Origin: Bifidobacteriaceae bacterium
Lineage (GTDB): Bacteria > Actinomycetota > Actinomycetes > Actinomycetales > WQXJ01
DNA length: 33,834 bases
Direction of reading: 5' to 3'
Assembly (NCBI GenBank): GCA_031272885.1
Contig: JAISSX010000063.1
Span: 1-33,834, forward strand
Each line of letters begins with the position of its first letter. Positions within the stretch are counted from its first letter, which is position 1. The notes under the pieces are model-generated. The model was not told the DNA's origin. It searched no databases and saw only the letters and a list, made by a program, of their open reading frames with translations. Below, one piece after another: positions 18,608 to 27,699 of this stretch. A program made the position numbers and the translations under genes.

Positions 18608-20380
18608 CTAGTCCAGGGGGACGGCCCATTCCAACCGTAGGCCGCGGCCGCCATCGGGCACCCGGACGTGAAAATCGCCGCCGTGCTGTTTAGCCCGGCC
18701 GGCCAGGTTAGACAACCCCGAGATGCGGTCGATGGCCGGGTCCAACCCCACGCCATCGTCCTCCACCAGAATTGTCACCGAACCGGGGCCAATCGGGCTG
18801 ACGCCCGGCGTCTCCACCGCCACGGTGACGTTAACCGACTTGGCCTTGGCGTGGCGGGCGGCGTTGGACAGGCCTTCGCGCACCACCGCCACCATGTCGT
18901 CGCCCAGGTTATCCGGGATCAGCGTCTCCAGGCGCTCCACTAGTTCGGCTTCGCCGTCCGCGCTGCCCAGGGCCTGGCCGTCCAGTAGCAGCACTAGCGA
19001 CGGCGCGAAGCCCAGCGACCAGCGGGCCAGCGAGGCTTCGTGGCGCAGGCGTTCGGTCACCTGTTCGCTGGTGGAGGGGCTGCGCAGGTGGGCCACGATC
19101 GACCGAATCTCACGCACCGTCGAATCGATCGAATCCAGGGCGTCGGACAGGGTGGCTTCCAGGCCTTTCGGCTCCTCCCCCTGGGCGGCCTGTTTGCGGG
19201 CCGATTCCAGCCGGATGCCCGTGGCGAAAAGCTGCTGGATGGCCAGGTCATGCAGGTCGCGGGCAATCCGTTCGCGCTCGGCCACCAGGGTGTTGAGGTC
19301 GGCGTTGTGGCGGGCCTCGGACAGTACCAGGGCCAAGGCGGCGTGGGCGGCGAAAGACTCGGCCGTGGTCAGGTCCGCCTGGTCGAACGAGTTGGCACCG
19401 ATCTGCCGCAGCAACACCAGCACGCCAACCCCGCGGCCCAAGGTGCGCAGCGGGGCATACAGCGCCGGCCCGAAGGCCCGCAACTGCTCTACCCGCAGGG
19501 TGTAGGCGGCGGCCAGCGAGTCGACAATCATGCCGATGCCCTCGGTCAACACCGTGTGGGAGCGCCCGCCGGTGGGCATGCGCAGGCCGATCAGGCCATC
19601 GGCCCCCTCGCCGTCCGCGATCTCAATCACCAGTTGATCGCCCACGGACGGCAGCACCAGGATGGCGGTGCAGGCTCCGGCCACGGTGCGGGCCCGTTCC
19701 GCGATCAGGCTGAGGGCTTCCTCTTCCTCCGCGCCGGACAGCAGCATTGTGGTGATCTCTTGCCCGGCTGACAGCCAGTGTTCGCGCCGCTGCGAGGCCA
19801 TGTATAGCTGGGCGTTCTCGATGGCGACCCCCACCGCTGTGGCCAGGGCGGCGATGATCTCGCCATCGGCCTGGGTGAAGCCGCCGGGCTTGCCCACCAG
19901 GTAGAGGTGGGCGAACACGACGTGCCGCACCCGCACACTGGCGCCCATGAAGGCGTCCGAATCGGGGCCGCCCGGGGAGGCCGGCTTGGCGGTCGCCTCC
20001 GCCACCACCGGGATGGCGCCGGTGGCGGTCCGTTCGATGGGGAAGTGGTCCAGGATCAGCGGCTGGTGGGCTGGGATGCGCGTCATCAGGCCGCCGGCGT
20101 GGCGCAGTTCCTCCAGCCGGTCAAGCGGCGCCTGGTCGCTGCTATGGATGTAAAAACGCTGGTCGACGCCCCGGCCGTCCAACACGTTGAGGGCGGCGCC
20201 GCTGGCCCCGGTCAGTTCCGGGGCGGCTACCACCAGGCGCTGCAACAGTTCCCCCAGGTCCAACCGGCTGGACAGGGACAGGACGGCAGACAGTAGTTCG
20301 GATTCCACCTGCGCGGCCCGGGGCGTCTGGCCGGCTTGGTTGCGGCGCGTCAAACGCGCACGGCGAGGGGATGACGCCAT
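18608..20380 (-). CDS. GAF-domain sensor histidine kinase (DosS/DevS-like architecture)
   Basis: A 590-residue soluble kinase, no membrane segment. Two GAF sensor domains occupy about residues 40-195 and 215-355. A HisKA_3 dimerisation domain follows with phospho-acceptor His377 in RIARDLHDLAIQQLFATG, then an HATPase domain with the N-box REGLSNAARHAKA (about 501-513) and DDGVG (541-545). This is the DosS/DosT layout. In those proteins a His in an HPPM-F-G segment of the first GAF holds heme; the matching stretch here, GGPDSDAFMGASVRVR, has no His, so the signal may differ. It lies 43 bp after cydC on the same strand and may be co-transcribed with cyd. The cognate regulator converges on it with no gap. 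Confidence 0.9.
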   Translation of the reverse strand: MASSPRRARLTRRNQAGQTPRAAQVESELLSAVLSLSSRLDLGELLQRLVVAAPELTGASGAALNVLDGRGVDQRFYIHSSDQAPLDRLEELRHAGGLMTRIPAHQPLILDHFPIERTATGAIPVVAEATAKPASPGGPDSDAFMGASVRVRHVVFAHLYLVGKPGGFTQADGEIIAALATAVGVAIENAQLYMASQRREHWLSAGQEITTMLLSGAEEEEALSLIAERARTVAGACTAILVLPSVGDQLVIEIADGEGADGLIGLRMPTGGRSHTVLTEGIGMIVDSLAAAYTLRVEQLRAFGPALYAPLRTLGRGVGVLVLLRQIGANSFDQADLTTAESFAAHAALALVLSEARHNADLNTLVAERERIARDLHDLAIQQLFATGIRLESARKQAAQGEEPKGLEATLSDALDSIDSTVREIRSIVAHLRSPSTSEQVTERLRHEASLARWSLGFAPSLVLLLDGQALGSADGEAELVERLETLIPDNLGDDMVAVVREGLSNAARHAKAKSVNVTVAVETPGVSPIGPGSVTILVEDDGVGLDPAIDRISGLSNLAGRAKQHGGDFHVRVPDGGRGLRLEWAVPLD

Positions 20381-20423: not shown

Positions 20424-22136
20424 TTAGCTGTGCAGACCCGCGGCGACGGGTTCCAGGCGACCGCCGCGTACCGCCAACACCTGGTCGGCCGTGGCCAGGG
20501 CTTCCGGCCGGTGGGACACCACGATCACCCCGCGGCCGGATTGGTGGGCGATGGCGAGCAGCCCCGCCGTCAGCCGGTCGGCCGCTGCCGCGTCCAGGTG
20601 TTCGGCCGGCTCGTCGAACAGCAGGTAACGGGCCGGGCAGGCCAAGGCGCGGGCCATCAGCAAGCGCCGCCGCTCCCCGCCCGAAACATCCGTGGCGCCC
20701 GTTCCTAGGGCCGTGTTCAGGCCATCCGGCAGGGCGGCCAGCCAGTCCGCCAGGCCAACCGTCTCCAGCAGGTTATGGGCTTCGGCCTCGGTCACGTCGC
20801 CGCGGGCCACGCGCAGGTTTTCCAGCACGGTGGTGGCGAAGATGTGGGCGTCCTCGGCCACGAACACCACACCGGCGGCCCGGGTCTGGGAATCCAGCCC
20901 AACCAGCGGTGTGCCGCCGATGACGACCCGGCCGGCTTGGGGCGCCAGCAGCCCTGCCAGGGTGGCCAACAGCGTGGTCTTGCCCGCGCCGGAGGGCCCC
21001 ACCAGACCGATCGACCGGCCCGGTTCCAGGGTCAACTCGACGTCGCTCACCACCGCCGGCCCATCCGGCCAGCCGGCGGCCAGGCCGGTCGCCACCAGTG
21101 GGCCAGCCAGCGTAGTGGCCTCATCTACGGCAGGCGCCTGGGCGCCATCGGGCACCTGGCCTTCGTGGCCGGCCTCCGCTAGGGCCACAATGCGGCGGGC
21201 GGCGGCGCGGGACTTGTAGACCTGGGCGGCGGCGGCGCTGAGGCCCGCCACGGCCTCGAAACAGGCCAGCGGCGTCAGCACCACCACGCCCAGGGCGGTG
21301 GCGCTGAGCCGGCCGTCCCAATAGGCGTGGGCGGACAGGACCAGGGCCAGGATCAGGGCCAGGCCCACGCCCACCTCGGTCAGGGCTTGGGCCAGCGCCT
21401 GGGGTTTGGCGGCGGCGTCGGTGGCCTGCTCCAGGCGGTCCTCGCCGCGCTTCAGGGCCCGGCGGGCGGCGGGCATCTGGCCGCCCACGCGCAGTTCGGA
21501 GGCCGTCTCCAGGATCTCCAGGCCGGCCGCCGAAACCTCTGAGCGAGCGGCGTTGGCCCGTTCCTGGCTGATGCGGGCGGCCCGGAAGGTCAGCGCCGGC
21601 CCGCCCACGGCCACCAGGGCCAGGCAGAGGAACAGGGCCACCCCCATTTCCGGCAGCAGCCAGCCCACCGCCACCGAACTGCCCACCATCAGCAGGCCGG
21701 CCACCATGGTGGGGATCAGGCCGCGTACCACCAGGTCGCCCACGTCATCGACGTCCGCGCCCACTCGGGCCAGCAGGTCGCCGCGGCGCAGGGCGGCGGC
21801 GGCCGATGGCGCCCCGGCGGCCAGGCGTTCATACAGCCGCACCCGCAGTTCGGTCATGCCGTTCAGCGCCACCCGGTGGGCCGTCAGGCGTTCGACGTAG
21901 CGCGAGACGCCCCGGGTGATACCGCAGGTGCGGACCATCACGACGGCGATCTGCAGGGACAGCACCGGTGGCATCTGGGAGGCGCGCACAATCAGCCAGG
22001 CCGAAACGGCGGCCAGCGCCACCGAGGCGGTTTGGGTCAGGGCACCGAAGAAGACGGCGGCGGCCAGTGGGCCGGGCTTGAGGCCGGTCAGGCGGATGGC
22101 GCGGCGCAGGGCGTGCTTGGGTGCGGAGGTGGTCAT
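20424..22136 (-). CDS. cydC: ABC transporter subunit CydC (cytochrome bd assembly)
   Basis: CydC with CydD forms the heterodimeric ABC exporter needed for cytochrome bd maturation; E. coli work links it to thiols and heme. The 570-residue protein has an N-terminal six-helix membrane part (about 1-310) and a nucleotide-binding domain with Walker A GPSGAGKT (380-387), signature VSGGERRR (484-491), Walker B YLLFDEP (504-510) and switch His542. The Q-loop position reads VAEDAHIF, with Glu428 where Gln is usual, and the D-loop is AEHLD. The linker contains a perfect copy of the dispersed 15-nt word (21141-21155), encoding VPDGA. ATG 22136 overlaps the cydD stop; a frame open to 22637 lies inside cydD. 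Confidence 0.92.
   Translation of the reverse strand: MTTSAPKHALRRAIRLTGLKPGPLAAAVFFGALTQTASVALAAVSAWLIVRASQMPPVLSLQIAVVMVRTCGITRGVSRYVERLTAHRVALNGMTELRVRLYERLAAGAPSAAAALRRGDLLARVGADVDDVGDLVVRGLIPTMVAGLLMVGSSVAVGWLLPEMGVALFLCLALVAVGGPALTFRAARISQERANAARSEVSAAGLEILETASELRVGGQMPAARRALKRGEDRLEQATDAAAKPQALAQALTEVGVGLALILALVLSAHAYWDGRLSATALGVVVLTPLACFEAVAGLSAAAAQVYKSRAAARRIVALAEAGHEGQVPDGAQAPAVDEATTLAGPLVATGLAAGWPDGPAVVSDVELTLEPGRSIGLVGPSGAGKTTLLATLAGLLAPQAGRVVIGGTPLVGLDSQTRAAGVVFVAEDAHIFATTVLENLRVARGDVTEAEAHNLLETVGLADWLAALPDGLNTALGTGATDVSGGERRRLLMARALACPARYLLFDEPAEHLDAAAADRLTAGLLAIAHQSGRGVIVVSHRPEALATADQVLAVRGGRLEPVAAGLHS
21141..21155 (-). repeat. Dispersed 15-nt word, perfect reverse copy in cydC
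   Basis: GGCGCCATCGGGCAC, the complement of the copies at 7415 and 29807. On the coding strand it reads GTG CCC GAT GGC GCC (VPDGA) in the linker before the ATPase domain. Confidence 0.8.
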
Positions 22137-23875
22137 AGGAACCAGGCCTCCCGGGCTTGGACCGGCTCCGCCTGGGCTGCTTCGGAGGCTTCGGCTGCGT
22201 CCTGGGCGGGGGCCCAGGCCACGGTCACCGTCTGGTGAGCCATGGCCAGCAGCGAGGCCCGGTGGGCCACCACCAAAACGGTGCGGCCGGCCCGGTGCAG
22301 AGCCTCGATCGAGGCGATGACGTGCGCCTCGGTGGCGGCGTCCAGGTGGGCGGTCGGCTCGTCCAGGATCACCAGCGGGCTGGGGGAGAGGAAAGCCCGG
22401 GCTAGCGCCAGGCGTTGGCGTTGGCCAACCGACAGCCCCACGCCGCCCTGCCCGATGGCGCTGTGCCAGCCGTCCGGTAGGCTCGCCACCACTTCGGCGA
22501 AGCCGCTGGCGGCGGCCGCCGCCTCGACCGCCGGGCTGACGGCGCCCGGCTGGTCCCAGTCCTGCAGCAGGTTTTGCAGGGCGGTACCGGGCAGCAACAT
22601 GGGCCGCTGGGGCGCCCAGGCGATCTGGTTCCACCAACTGTCGGGGGCGACATCGGCCAGGTCGATCGGTGCGCCGCCGGGAGCCTGGACGGTGACCCGC
22701 CCGGCATCGGGCCTGATAAGACCAAGCAGGGCCAGTACAGTGGTCGACTTGCCGGCGCCGTTGGGGCCGGTCAGGGCGGTCAGGGAGCCGGGCTCAAGGG
22801 TGAAGCTGAGGCCGGCCGGTGCCAGGCGGCCGCGGCCTTTGGCCAGCACGCCCAGGTCGCTGACCGTGATGGTGGCTTGGGCCAAGTCAGGGGCCGGCAC
22901 CGTGCCGGCCTGCGGCAGCGGCAAGGCCAGCAGGTCGAAGGCCCGCTCCGAGGCGGCCACGCCGTTGGCCGAGGCGTGGAAGTGGGTGCCCACGTGGCGT
23001 AGCGGCGCCAAGACTTCCGGCGCGATCATGATGATGGCCAGGCCGCGCACCAGGTCCAGGTGGCCGGCCTGCAGGCGCAGGCCCACCCACACGGCCACCA
23101 GGGCCACCGACAAGGTGGCGATCAGTTCCAGGGCGGCGCCGCTCAGGAAGGCGATGCGGACGGTGCCGAAGGTGGCCTTGGAGTGGGCCTGGCTGAGCGC
23201 CCGGACGCGGGCCGCCGGGCCGCGCTCCCTGCCCAGGGCCTTCAGCGTGGGCAGGCCGCTGATCAGGTCCAACACCTGTGATCCTAGTGTCGTCATGGAG
23301 CGCAGGCGCCGGGCTGAGGCGGCCTGGGTCAGCCGGCCAATCAGAATCATGAAGAGCGGAATCAGGGGAATTGTCAGGAGCAGCAGCAAGGCGGATTGCC
23401 AGTCGGTGAAGCCGGCCACCAGCAGCAGGATGGGGGTCACCGTGACCACCATCAACAGTTGCGGCAGGTAGCGGGCAAAGTAGGCGTCCAGGGCGTCCAG
23501 GCCGCGGGTGACCAACTGGGTGGTCTTGGCCAGTTGCCCCGCGCCGGCGCCGCGTGGGCCGAGTTTGACGGTGTGTTCCAGGACCGCGCCGCGCAGTTCG
23601 GCGATGGTGTGGATGGCGGCCCGGTGGGCGTAGCGTTCCTGGGCCCAACTGGCGGCCACGCGGGCGGCCACGATGCCGGCCAGGGCCAGCACGGTGTGGC
23701 CCAGGGCGGTGCCGTCGAAGGGGTCCCCGGCTGCGAGGCGGCCCACCGCCCGGGCCACCAGCAGGGCCTGTGCCACCACCAGCACCGACAGCGCCACGCC
23801 CAATGCGGCCGTCACCACGATGTAGCGGCGGGCGGCTTGGGCATGCCTGATCAAACGGGGATCGAGCGGTTTCAT
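22133..23875 (-). CDS. cydD: ABC transporter subunit CydD (cytochrome bd assembly)
   Basis: Partner of CydC in the inner-membrane exporter required for bd oxidase assembly. The 580-residue protein has six hydrophobic segments in residues 15-300, then Walker A GPNGAGKS (370-377), Q-loop Gln423, signature LSVGQ (481-485; usually LSGGQ), Walker B LVILDEP (501-507) and His538. A 25-residue Ala/Glu-rich tail ends the protein. The names CydD and CydC follow gene order (cydA-B-D-C as in mycobacteria). It starts 124 bp after the cydB stop, behind GC-rich hairpins, and ends in a 4-bp overlap with cydC. Confidence 0.92.
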   Translation of the reverse strand: MKPLDPRLIRHAQAARRYIVVTAALGVALSVLVVAQALLVARAVGRLAAGDPFDGTALGHTVLALAGIVAARVAASWAQERYAHRAAIHTIAELRGAVLEHTVKLGPRGAGAGQLAKTTQLVTRGLDALDAYFARYLPQLLMVVTVTPILLLVAGFTDWQSALLLLLTIPLIPLFMILIGRLTQAASARRLRSMTTLGSQVLDLISGLPTLKALGRERGPAARVRALSQAHSKATFGTVRIAFLSGAALELIATLSVALVAVWVGLRLQAGHLDLVRGLAIIMIAPEVLAPLRHVGTHFHASANGVAASERAFDLLALPLPQAGTVPAPDLAQATITVSDLGVLAKGRGRLAPAGLSFTLEPGSLTALTGPNGAGKSTTVLALLGLIRPDAGRVTVQAPGGAPIDLADVAPDSWWNQIAWAPQRPMLLPGTALQNLLQDWDQPGAVSPAVEAAAAASGFAEVVASLPDGWHSAIGQGGVGLSVGQRQRLALARAFLSPSPLVILDEPTAHLDAATEAHVIASIEALHRAGRTVLVVAHRASLLAMAHQTVTVAWAPAQDAAEASEAAQAEPVQAREAWFL

Positions 23876-23899: not shown

Positions 23900-23988
23900 C
23901 CCCCTTCCCTCATGAAGAAGGGGGGTGGGGGTCTGGGTGGACCCTCACCCCCCTTCGAGGGGGTACAGCTACTTCAGGGGGTACAGCT
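23900..23988 (-). promoter_or_regulatory. Intercistronic hairpins and direct repeats between cydB and cydD
   Basis: Two GC-rich stems: CCCCCTTC (23900-23907) with GAAGGGGG (23917-23924), and CCCCCT (23949-23954) with AGGGGG (23958-23963). A 13-bp direct repeat AGGGGGTACAGCT occurs at 23958-23970 and 23976-23988. No T-run follows. A stability or processing element that sets different cydAB and cydDC levels is plausible but unproved. Confidence 0.5.
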
Positions 23989-23999
23989 TGGCGCTATTT

Positions 24000-26036
24000 T
24001 CAGGCGACCTTCTCCAGGCCGGATTCCTCCGGGATACGGTCGGCCGAGATGCGGCGGCGGAACACGATGATGCTCCACGCCTGGTAGGCCAGGACGATCG
24101 GCACCAGGCAGCCCGCCACAATGGTCATCAGCTTCAAGGTCAGGGGCGAAGAAGCCGCGGCGTGCATCGGCAGGCCGGTAATCTTCGCACCATCTTCGAA
24201 ACCTTCCAGCGTGGTGTGTTCATCCAACAGGCCCAGCGCCACGAGGGCATCGAGCGCCACGTTGGCGTTCTCCAGGCGGCCGTTGATGTTGGCCAGGGCC
24301 AGGTCGTTGTCCCAAGCCGAGCCGGTGATGATGGGCAGCAGTTCCATGCCGTCCTTGAACACCGGCGTTTCGGCCTCAGGCGCATCGGCCACGGCCTGCA
24401 GCGTGTCGACCACCTTGCCCAGCACGCCCTGCACGGAGGCGGGGATCTGGTTCAGGGCTGCCGCCACGGTCTTCTGCACCTCGGCCACCACGGTTTCGGC
24501 CGGCAGGCCGCCAATGGTGTCCGATTCACCAGCCAAGGCCGGCCCGATGTCGCCCACCACAGCCGCGATGGTCTCATCGGTCGGGTCAACGCCCACGCGG
24601 GCCAGGGTGATGGTCACCACGTCGACCACGTTGCCCAGCGGGATGACGCCGATCACCGGATCGTCACCGGCCACCACGGACTGCAGGATGGCGGTGGTGA
24701 CCTGGTTCTGGAAATCGGTCGGTTCGGCTTGGATGTCATCGACCGTCAGGGCGCCGCTCTCAAGCGCGGCCTTGACCCGGTCGAAGCACTTGACCACCAC
24801 CATCTCAACGTCTTCCTGCGGGATGAGGCCGGCGGCGGGATAGGTGCCGGTGGCCACGTCGGCCAGGATGGCGTCGGTCAAGGCGACGGTGTGTTCGGTC
24901 GGCTCGCCCACCAGGTCGGCCCCAGGCGTGGCCTCCACGGCCTGGAACGTCAAGGTGACCACGTCCCCCACGTTGAGGCCGGCGCCGCCGTTGTCCGTGC
25001 CCAACACCACGCGGCCCACAATCGGGTCGGCAATGGCATCGCCCTTGACCGTCACGCTGGAGGCGTTGATGACGTTGGGGAACAGGGACACGAAGATGGT
25101 GGCCACGGCGGCGGCCAGGGCAACCGTCATCGCCACGAAGGAGACGCCGAACTTCTTCGACAGGGTGAACAGCACCACCAGCACCAGGGCCACGGCGGCC
25201 ACGGCCACGGTGATCCATTCGATGGTGGGGTTGTTGCCGAACTTGAAGGCCAGCCAGACGGCCCACACGGCCGCCAGGACCGTGGCGACGATGGCCAGCT
25301 TGGGGGCAAGGGATTCGGCCCTGTGCCGCAGTTCGCCGTCCGTCTTCAACGCCAGGAAGATGGCGCCGATGGTCAGGAACAGCGAAGCGGTGACCAGGCC
25401 ACCCAGCAGGACGAAGCCCTGGTGGGCAATGACCAGATCCCAGAAGCCGCCCGCGTAGACGATCTTCGAGGGGCCAACCTGGGTGGCATCGACCGCGGCG
25501 GGCACGCCCGCCACCAGATCGGAGAACGCCACGCCCCACAGCACAGCGGGGATCCAGGAACCGAGGATGATGCAGTAGTCCCACATCTTGCGCCAGCCGG
25601 CCCCGTTGATCTTGCCGCGGTATTCGAACGCCACCGCGCGGGCGATCAGGCCCAGCAGGATCAGGAACAGGGGCAGGTAGGCGGCCGAGAACAATGTGGC
25701 GTACCACTCGGGGAAGGCCGCGAAGGTGGCGCCACCGGCGGTGAGCACCCAAACCTCGTTGCCGTCCCACAGTGGGCCGATGGTGGAAAGCATGGCCCGG
25801 CGCTCGGAATCCTTCTTGCCCAGGATGGGCAGCAGCATGCCGACGCCGAAGTCGAAGCCCTCCAGCACCAGATAGCCGGTCCACAGGACGGCGATCAGGC
25901 CGAACCAGAGGATCTCCAGGCCGGTGGGATCGGTAGTCAGGAAGTGCAGCAGGTTCACCACTGCGTTGGCGGTGCCTTCAGTGTTGGCCGGATCGACCGG
26001 CGCAGCCGCTAGAACGGAAGCCAGAATGTCAGTCAT
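24000..26036 (-). CDS. cydB: Cytochrome bd ubiquinol/menaquinol oxidase subunit II with a large loop insertion
   Basis: CydB is the second core subunit of the membrane-bound bd oxidase, which reduces oxygen to water with quinol electrons. At 678 residues it is nearly twice the usual 340-380. Family sequence covers residues 39-325 (ILWFGLIAVLWTGYLVLEGF, the DGNEVW motif at 91-96) and 628-678 (SSPLTLKLMTIVAG, the last helix and tail). Between them, after SLFPNVINASS, lie about 300 soluble residues. From E. coli topology this loop faces outside. A 38-residue N-terminal extension is also unusual but is preceded by a strong AAGGAGA ribosome site. The frame is open throughout, with no sign of frameshift. 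It follows cydA by 23 bp. Confidence 0.93.
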   Translation of the reverse strand: MTDILASVLAAAPVDPANTEGTANAVVNLLHFLTTDPTGLEILWFGLIAVLWTGYLVLEGFDFGVGMLLPILGKKDSERRAMLSTIGPLWDGNEVWVLTAGGATFAAFPEWYATLFSAAYLPLFLILLGLIARAVAFEYRGKINGAGWRKMWDYCIILGSWIPAVLWGVAFSDLVAGVPAAVDATQVGPSKIVYAGGFWDLVIAHQGFVLLGGLVTASLFLTIGAIFLALKTDGELRHRAESLAPKLAIVATVLAAVWAVWLAFKFGNNPTIEWITVAVAAVALVLVVLFTLSKKFGVSFVAMTVALAAAVATIFVSLFPNVINASSVTVKGDAIADPIVGRVVLGTDNGGAGLNVGDVVTLTFQAVEATPGADLVGEPTEHTVALTDAILADVATGTYPAAGLIPQEDVEMVVVKCFDRVKAALESGALTVDDIQAEPTDFQNQVTTAILQSVVAGDDPVIGVIPLGNVVDVVTITLARVGVDPTDETIAAVVGDIGPALAGESDTIGGLPAETVVAEVQKTVAAALNQIPASVQGVLGKVVDTLQAVADAPEAETPVFKDGMELLPIITGSAWDNDLALANINGRLENANVALDALVALGLLDEHTTLEGFEDGAKITGLPMHAAASSPLTLKLMTIVAGCLVPIVLAYQAWSIIVFRRRISADRIPEESGLEKVA
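24156..25061 (-). other. Novel extracytoplasmic insertion domain within CydB
   Basis: Residues about 326-627 of CydB. The segment is acidic, without membrane helices. Two parts look alike: residues 333-432 (ADPIVGRVVLG ... NVGDVVTLTF ... TEHTVALTDAI ... AAGLIPQEDV) and 454-545 (DDPVIGVIPLG, NVVDVVTITL, TDETIAAVVGDI, IGGLPAETVV). The rest (550-625) is less repetitive. It contains a single cysteine (Cys417). I do not recognise the fold. Confidence 0.75.
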
Positions 26037-26059: not shown

Positions 26060-27610
26060 TCAGTAGCTGAAGGTCAGCGGCTTGGACTCGTCCAAGTCGG
26101 CCTTCACCTCGGGGGGAACCTCTTCCAGCGGCGCGCCCTTGGCGACATACCGCTTCATGAGGTAGAACCAGGCGATTGCCAACACCAGATACAACAGCGT
26201 GAAGACAATCACCGTGATGATGACGGAACTGGCCGGCACAACCGGCGAGACCGCGTTGACGGTGGTCAAGGAGAGGTCGGCCGCATCGGGCGACAGGCTC
26301 TGCACACCACCGCTGTTGGAGTAGTTGAGCACCGGATAGACGATGAACGGTTGGCGGCCGATTTCGGTGAAGATCCAGCCGAAGGCCGCGCCCAGGAACG
26401 GCATGGGCAGCGACAGCACCGACCAGAACTTCAGGAAGCCGGAACCGGTGGTGCGCCCGCCCCGCAAGGCGAACAGGCCCACCAGCGCCAACAGGGCGCT
26501 GAAAGCCCCGAACGCGATCATCAGGCGGAAGGTCCAGAAGACCGTCATCTGATTCGGGATGAAGTCGAGACCAACCTCGTCCGCCACCTCGGGCGGCGTC
26601 TGGTAGCCGTCTTGCAGCAACTGCTCGGCATCGTTGATGCCGGTCACCTGCGCACCGGTGTCGTTGTAGGCCAGCAGAGAGAGCAGCTTCGGGATGGTGA
26701 TGATGCGGGTGGGTTCGGTCCATTCGCCCTGCAAGTTGGCGGGATCGACCGGCGCGCACTCGCCGAAGGCCACCACGGTGAAGCCGGCGCCCTCGCCCTC
26801 GGCGGGCGTGACGCACAGCATTTCGGCGGCGGCCATCTTGGTCGGCTGGATCTTGGTGATCACCTGGGCCTGGTGGTGGCCCGAGAAGATCAGCGAGATG
26901 CCGGCGATGATCACAACCCAGCAACCCACCACGCCGGCCTTGCGGTAGACCTTGGCGCCGTCTTCGTTGCCGGCCCGGACCGCCTTAACCACCCACCAGA
27001 TGGCGATGCCGGCCATGAACGTGCCGGCCACCACGAAGGAGGTGGAGATGGTGTGCCAGAAGGTGGAGAGTGAGAGCTGCGAGAACAGCACCGACCCCAG
27101 AGAGTCCATCTGGGCGCGGCCAGCCACAGGATCATACGAGGACCCGACCGGGTACTGCATGAAGCTGTTGGCGGCCAGGATGAAGAAGGCCGACAGGTTG
27201 ACGGCGAAGGCCACCAGCCAGATGGAGAGCAGGTGGACGCCGCGGCTGAGGCGACCCCAGCCGAAGATCCACACGCCCAGGAACGTGGATTCGATGAAGA
27301 ATGCCGCCAAGGCCTCCATGGCCAGTGGCGCGCCGAAGATGTCGCCGACCATCCGGGAGTACTCGGACCAGTTCATGCCGAACTGGAACTCCTGGACGAT
27401 GCCGGTCACAATGCCCAGCGCGAAGTTGATCAGCAACAACTTGCCGAAGAACCGCGTGAGCCGGTACCACTCGTCTTTGCCGGTCTTGTACCAGATGGTC
27501 TGGAGCAGGGCGACCAGGGGCGTCAGGCCGATGGTCAGCGGCACAAAGATGAAGTGGTACACAGTGGTGATGCCGAACTGCCATCTGGCAAGATCAAGCG
27601 CTTCTAACAT
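26060..27610 (-). CDS. cydA: Cytochrome bd ubiquinol/menaquinol oxidase subunit I
   Basis: CydA carries the three hemes and the quinol site of the bd oxidase. With the ATG at 27610 the protein is 516 residues, and numbering matches E. coli: His19 (heme b595/d side), His185 (heme b558), Glu99 and Glu106 of the proton path, and Met363 in FRLMIAFG (heme b558). The Q-loop motif QPTKMAAAE (about residues 254-262) and GRQP (417-420) are intact; the Q-loop is the short type. GGAGG five bases before ATG 27610 rules out the GTG at 27616. First gene of the cyd unit, divergent from the radical SAM gene across a 255-bp regulatory region. Confidence 0.96.
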   Translation of the reverse strand: MLEALDLARWQFGITTVYHFIFVPLTIGLTPLVALLQTIWYKTGKDEWYRLTRFFGKLLLINFALGIVTGIVQEFQFGMNWSEYSRMVGDIFGAPLAMEALAAFFIESTFLGVWIFGWGRLSRGVHLLSIWLVAFAVNLSAFFILAANSFMQYPVGSSYDPVAGRAQMDSLGSVLFSQLSLSTFWHTISTSFVVAGTFMAGIAIWWVVKAVRAGNEDGAKVYRKAGVVGCWVVIIAGISLIFSGHHQAQVITKIQPTKMAAAEMLCVTPAEGEGAGFTVVAFGECAPVDPANLQGEWTEPTRIITIPKLLSLLAYNDTGAQVTGINDAEQLLQDGYQTPPEVADEVGLDFIPNQMTVFWTFRLMIAFGAFSALLALVGLFALRGGRTTGSGFLKFWSVLSLPMPFLGAAFGWIFTEIGRQPFIVYPVLNYSNSGGVQSLSPDAADLSLTTVNAVSPVVPASSVIITVIVFTLLYLVLAIAWFYLMKRYVAKGAPLEEVPPEVKADLDESKPLTFSY

Positions 27611-27699
27611 GCGCACCTCCGCTGTGAGGATGGGGTGGTCTATGGTCAGGGTATGAAAATGGCGCCAGCCCAGGACAGCCCAAGGACCGTTGATGGGCC

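Follow-up and report, generated by a model that had tools for sequence, protein, structure and literature searches.

A predicted helical repeat domain within the TM8-TM9 loop of CydB in one family of the Actinomycetales

Introduction

CydB is regarded as a conserved, cofactor-free partner of CydA. Among actinobacterial CydB, those of M. smegmatis (7D5I), M. tuberculosis (7NKZ), and C. glutamicum (8B4O) are the closest described systems. The CydB investigated here is like these in its core of TM helices 1 to 8 and TM9, in its CydA operon partner, and in the cydD/cydC-like genes downstream. It differs in having 296 residues between TM8 and TM9 where the others have approximately 7 to 10, and in an N-terminal extension of approximately 38 residues that these three lack.

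Additional residues in outer loops of bd subunits have been described before, in the periplasmic insertions of CydA: the long-Q-loop extension and the 8-residue PL8 insertion of mycobacteria. These are, however, in the catalytic subunit, are far shorter, and lack a folded repeat domain (PMC8951039, PMC8413341). A respiratory component with a carboxylate-rich extension on its outer side is also known, namely the cytochrome c of alkaliphiles, whose acidic N-terminal segment has been proposed to act as an H+-capacitor (PMC12457358). The inserts described here share the acidity of that outer segment, but the segment itself is short, Asn-rich, and part of a c-type cytochrome, with neither repeats nor fold. 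A folded repeat domain in the TM8-TM9 loop of CydB is not described in the literature that was found, in a search of partial coverage, in agreement with a preliminary description of the locus that knew of no such CydB.

Results

The window, a stretch of 33,834 nucleotides from a Bifidobacteriaceae bacterium, contains cydB, for cytochrome bd oxidase subunit II (678 aa), at 24000-26036 on the minus strand. The start codon is ATG, and a ribosome-binding sequence (AAGGAG) lies ahead of it. Its product matches TIGR00203 (E 1.2e-87) and, in two stretches, PF02322 (E 1.8e-94); the two pieces (profile 1-269, then 265-302) keep their order in a single open frame, and the PF02322 score of 316.9 bits is above the curated cut-off of 35.6. 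The core of an AF2 model, of moderate confidence, has the CydB fold of nine TM helices, matching M. smegmatis CydB (7d5i_B) with a VIA Z of 21.0 and an rmsd of 3.5 (274 aligned). An ordinary cydA of 518 aa (26060-27616, minus strand; PF01654 E 6.1e-142) adjoins cydB. By every test made, the protein is CydB. Antisense to the gene there is a 695-aa open frame (23925-26012, plus strand), which is probably a shadow frame of GC-rich DNA.

Two ABC transporter halves are also encoded on the minus strand, one cydD-like (22133-23875; PF00664 and PF00005) and one cydC-like (20424-22127; PF00005 and PF00664). After the cyd cluster there is a GAF - HisKA_3 sensor histidine kinase (18608-20380, minus strand), possibly a redox or oxygen sensor. 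There is one copy of cydA per family genome, some copies being cut by contig ends. The Q-loop of the CydA in the window has a Cys pair (LC..EC), kept in the relatives that were read, that recalls the Q-loop disulfide of M. tuberculosis. The length of this loop is 97-108 residues in insert-bearing species versus 90 in two short-loop ones.

The phmmer alignment of the window protein to solved CydB ends at residue 325 and picks up again at 622. Approximately 7 residues occupy this place in CydB of M. tuberculosis (281|289) and M. smegmatis (285|293). The core with TM helices 1 to 8, supported by both the phmmer and the VIA alignments, thus comprises residues 39-325 (25062-25922, minus strand), and it resumes with TM9 and the cytoplasmic tail at 24003-24173 (minus strand; second phmmer stretch, 622-676). 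Between them, in periplasmic loop 8, is an insert of approximately 296 aa, residues 326-621 (24174-25061, minus strand). The preliminary description had recognised this as an extra in-frame, soluble, acidic segment of the CydB loop, which it is. Its border at 25061 agrees with the alignment, but its border at 24156 was six residues too far and is corrected to 24174.

The same description had put the loop outside the cytoplasm, and the topology of solved bd oxidases agrees. The TM8-TM9 loop is on the outer side in these, as shown for CydA, to which CydB is pseudo-symmetric (PMC8413341). In CydB itself the TM6-7 connection is on the periplasmic surface (PMC9846854), and the TM8-9 loop is therefore on the periplasmic side too. 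The positive charges of the flanking loops of the window protein fit this arrangement, with none in the N-terminus and the TM6-7 loop, whereas the TM7-8 loop and the tail each contain several. The N-terminal extension, approximately 38 residues ahead of TM1 (25923-26036, minus strand), was delimited by the alignment to solved CydB, which begins at residue 39. It contains no Lys or Arg, is predicted to be helical, and lies, like the insert, on the outer side. An extension of approximately 35-38 residues is present throughout the family, in both short- and long-loop CydB, and has no counterpart in the CydB proteins of eight genomes from elsewhere in the order.

Within the insert, a stem is found at either end with an array of repeats between. 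The N-terminal stem (..GDAIADPIVGRVVLG..) is residues 326-354 (24975-25061) and the C-terminal stem (..TGSAWDNDLALANINGRLENANVALDALVALGLL..) residues 559-621 (24174-24362), all features of the insert being on the minus strand. Conservation among 13 inserts peaks at these two membrane-adjacent stems, with a mean majority-residue frequency of 0.82 for residues 319-338 and likewise for residues 579-598, and is lower in the repeats (0.52-0.68). The array starts with a partial unit 0 that has the second helix only (residues 355-374; 24915-24974; repeat HMM E 3.5e-5). This is followed by unit 1 (LTDAILADVATGTYPAAGLIPQEDVEMVVVKCFDRV..., residues 386-438; 24726-24881; repeat profile E 6.3e-22), unit 2 (TTAILQSVVAGDDPVIGVIPLGNVVDVVTITLARV..., residues 446-492; 24561-24701; repeat profile E 2.5e-17), and a degenerate unit 3 (..DTIGGLPAETVVAEVQKTVAAAL, residues 493-527; 24456-24560; repeat HMM E 9.8e-8 and 1.2e-8). 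The consensus of the approximately 60-residue unit is LTxAILxDVAxGxFPAAGVIPQxxVxxVVxITFARV.

The best 45-residue self-match of the insert scores 66 at an offset of 60, compared with a mean of 26 (sd 6) and a maximum of 51 for 500 shuffled sequences. An internal duplication of residues 333-432 and 454-545 had been proposed previously. These two stretches do align (BLAST E 6e-8, no composition correction), but each holds two units, in register, of the array. The 'duplication' is a tandem array of two-helix repeats of approximately 60 aa, variable in copy number and flanked by conserved stems. Most long inserts have 2-4 recognisable copies, with fewer in those of records L035, L038, and L040. The end units tend to be orthologous across species with extra copies between them, in a unit tree that is weakly resolved. 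In two of these records (L038:5035-7275 and L040:5038-7203) the CydB inserts have an additional segment, with a YGPCSM motif within a repeat, and the L038 insert contains three Cys.

AF2 prediction of the insert alone, from a 13-sequence alignment, gave eleven helices at moderate confidence (mean pLDDT 72.3, pTM 0.65), arranged as two-helix units with short loops as joints. The insert is therefore predicted to be folded and all-helical, rather than an unfolded sequence. In the full-length CydB prediction (12 sequences) confidence in the core was low (mean pLDDT 59), and the geometry between core and insert was set aside. The insert has 45 Asp/Glu and 11 Lys/Arg, giving a pI of 4.05 and a net charge of -34. 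All long inserts are strongly acidic, from -26 to -48, and the charge rises with length. There is one Cys in the window insert and 0-3 across the inserts, with no CxxC in any insert and no CxxCH heme attachment motif in 19 loops or inserts, which makes a redox-active or cytochrome c domain unlikely. The EF-hand/dockerin loop D-x-[DNS]-x-[DNS]-G is likewise absent from the 19 loops or inserts.

The insert is like alpha-helical tandem repeat proteins in having helix-loop-helix units in tandem and in variable number. When the window insert was compared with known helical repeat families (TPR, HEAT, ARM, and others), Pfam gave nothing up to E 1, and among PDB folds Foldseek gave nothing below E 0.6 (best E 0.63) and VIA no Z above 3.0 (best Z 3.0, rmsd 9.5, 104 aligned). 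Across 11 inserts Pfam gave two weak single matches, although degenerate repeats may escape profiles. No match to the window insert was found in NCBIfam or PDB sequences, nor to the insert in plasmids and phages by tblastn, to its alignment in viral contigs, or to its fold in BFVD (viral folds). A known domain is thus not indicated by Pfam, NCBIfam, PDB sequences and folds, or BFVD, although such absence is no proof of a new fold. When the domain was searched for on its own, the repeat profile matched no protein other than CydB in 18 family genomes and nothing convincing outside this family in 198 genomes of the order, which argues against recruitment from another protein.

CydB is present in 17 of the 18 family genomes, and a long insert interrupts it at the same point in 11 of these 17 (G000, G004-G010, G012, G013, G015). 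A scan of genome contigs provided 12 MAG records, labelled 'Bifidobacteriaceae bacterium' or 'Micrococcales bacterium', three of which add long inserts to this set: L035 (324 residues), L038 (357 residues), and L040 (335 residues). Long inserts of 286-462 residues are therefore found at one insertion point in 14 genomes or records of one Actinomycetales family. Genome G016 has an insert of 148 residues at the same point, in which a weak counterpart of the C-terminal stem can be seen; the extra segment is thus conserved in relatives, in these 14 long sequences and one 148-aa form. The loop is 30-53 residues in G001, G003, G014, and G017; it is short in G002 also, where an apparent split is due to a contig break within it. 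Outside the family, 149 genomes sampled from the order and 159 from the phylum yielded no split CydB. The isolate codes of L035, L038, and L040 (Emb289, Th196, and Lab288) correspond to termite species in PMC7024585, and three named relatives come from termite gut sections P3 and P4.

In the CydB core tree, rooted on other families, the short-loop lineages branch first, then the 148-residue form, and then the long forms. Support is 98/91 for the long group and 98/92 for the long and 148-aa forms together, with the short loops outside. From this branching order, the loop grew in steps, from ordinary to 30-53, to 148, and to 286 or more residues. For the two closest pairs, dN/dS is 0.11 in the insert and 0.09 in the core (G008/G013), and 0.38 and 0.17 (G000/G015). 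Insert values in the remaining pairs reach 0.66 and are rough, as dS is often high. All pairs tested have an insert dN/dS below 1; the insert is under purifying selection, weaker than that on the core.

The insert of G005 is nearest to that of G006 (82% identity), whereas its CydB core and CydA are nearest to those of G008 and G010. The nearest relative switches at the start of the insert and reverts past its end. In AU tests, the insert data reject the core clade (p 2.9e-5) and the core data reject the insert pair (p 0.0027). Window by window, G005 and G006 are 61-92% identical over the exchanged stretch, so the G006 contig was not simply copied; a chimera involving some unseen third genome keeps a residual probability. 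Judged from these comparisons, the insert appears to have passed as a unit from one species to another on at least one occasion.

In the contig records, the exchange appears to take in the whole CydB insert, between two species binned from the same sample code, Cd354 (L037:6001-7224 against L036:6001-7173). The cydA and cydB core flanking that insert follow another lineage.

Heme-copper oxidase subunit I (COX1) was found in none of the 18 family genomes. As a positive control, the same search was run on a sample of 39 genomes from across the order and detected it in 30. C. glutamicum, used as a control, should have COX1 and gave no match, so single misses are possible, but 18 out of 18 is not plausibly chance. 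Cytochrome bd therefore appears to be the sole terminal oxidase of the family. Contact of the outer domain with another oxidase, which had been among the suggestions of the preliminary description, is consequently unlikely.

Discussion

In this lineage, an extracytoplasmic domain, predicted to be folded, has arisen in place in the CydB loop that joins TM8 to TM9. Its conserved membrane-side stems hold an array of approximately 60-residue units, predicted to be helix-loop-helix, whose number varies by species. The insert would then be a non-catalytic, acidic, exposed canopy above the outer face of the apparent sole terminal oxidase, where it would most likely dock another extracytoplasmic component, or shield or space the enzyme in the cell envelope. 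Such a docking or shielding role has a probability of roughly 0.45. A broader proposal, in which a stepwise, in-place, exchangeable repeat module of undescribed fold couples the sole oxidase to an envelope partner, the gut environment, or predators, is more doubtful.

The faster evolution of the insert relative to the core and its variation in length count against a docking or shielding canopy, as does the moderate confidence of a fold predicted from 13 sequences, and a weakly constrained, largely neutral expansion is possible. A tolerant loop could have grown by slippage and duplication, with harmless folding as the only requirement. CydB is non-catalytic and more variable in sequence than CydA (PMC8413341), and the insert lengths vary widely, as would be expected. 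Yet no sampled long-insert lineage has lost the insert, the stems are strongly conserved, and dN/dS in the two closest pairs is well below 1 at 0.11-0.38, which leaves neutral or near-neutral growth improbable, if not negligibly so.

It is less probable still that the acidic surface serves to retain protons or cations, with its many carboxylates keeping the protons that quinol oxidation releases close to the membrane surface. Such retention would be an advantage where the termite gut is alkaline. It fits the acidity of every long insert and its growth with length, the mechanism proposed for acidic cytochrome c segments of alkaliphilic Bacillaceae (PMC12457358), and the P3 and P4 origin of the three named relatives, these sections being moderately alkaline or circumneutral and P1 highly alkaline (PMC7024585). 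However, the segment in the published case is short and rich in Asn, whereas the insert is predicted to consist of folded repeats with conserved hydrophobic positions. Acidic surfaces are also common in secreted proteins, and the short-loop relatives manage without an insert.

Similarly improbable is a variable surface module, a target or decoy for phage, bacteriocins, or host factors, with these rather than respiration driving variability and exchange. Changes in repeat number, the faster evolution of the insert relative to the core, and its exchange between species of the same termite sample would all be accounted for. Against this, dN/dS is below 1 in all pairs tested, the domain may fail to extend beyond the cell wall, and the searches turned up no related sequence from phages, plasmids, or viruses. 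An artefact, whether an assembly chimera or two joined genes, can be dismissed: although these are fragmented, MAG-like genomes, many assemblies with different sample codes have the insertion point, stems, and repeats in common, and the insert matches the core in GC (67% vs 66%) and GC3 (87% vs 90%).

The domain offers a direct way to test whether cytochrome bd makes contact, through its outer face, with other components of the envelope. CydB has here gained nearly its own former mass again, in what appears to be the bacterium's only terminal oxidase. The living intermediates, with 30-53, 148, and 286-462 residues, are a rare readable record of a domain growing from a loop by tandem duplication.
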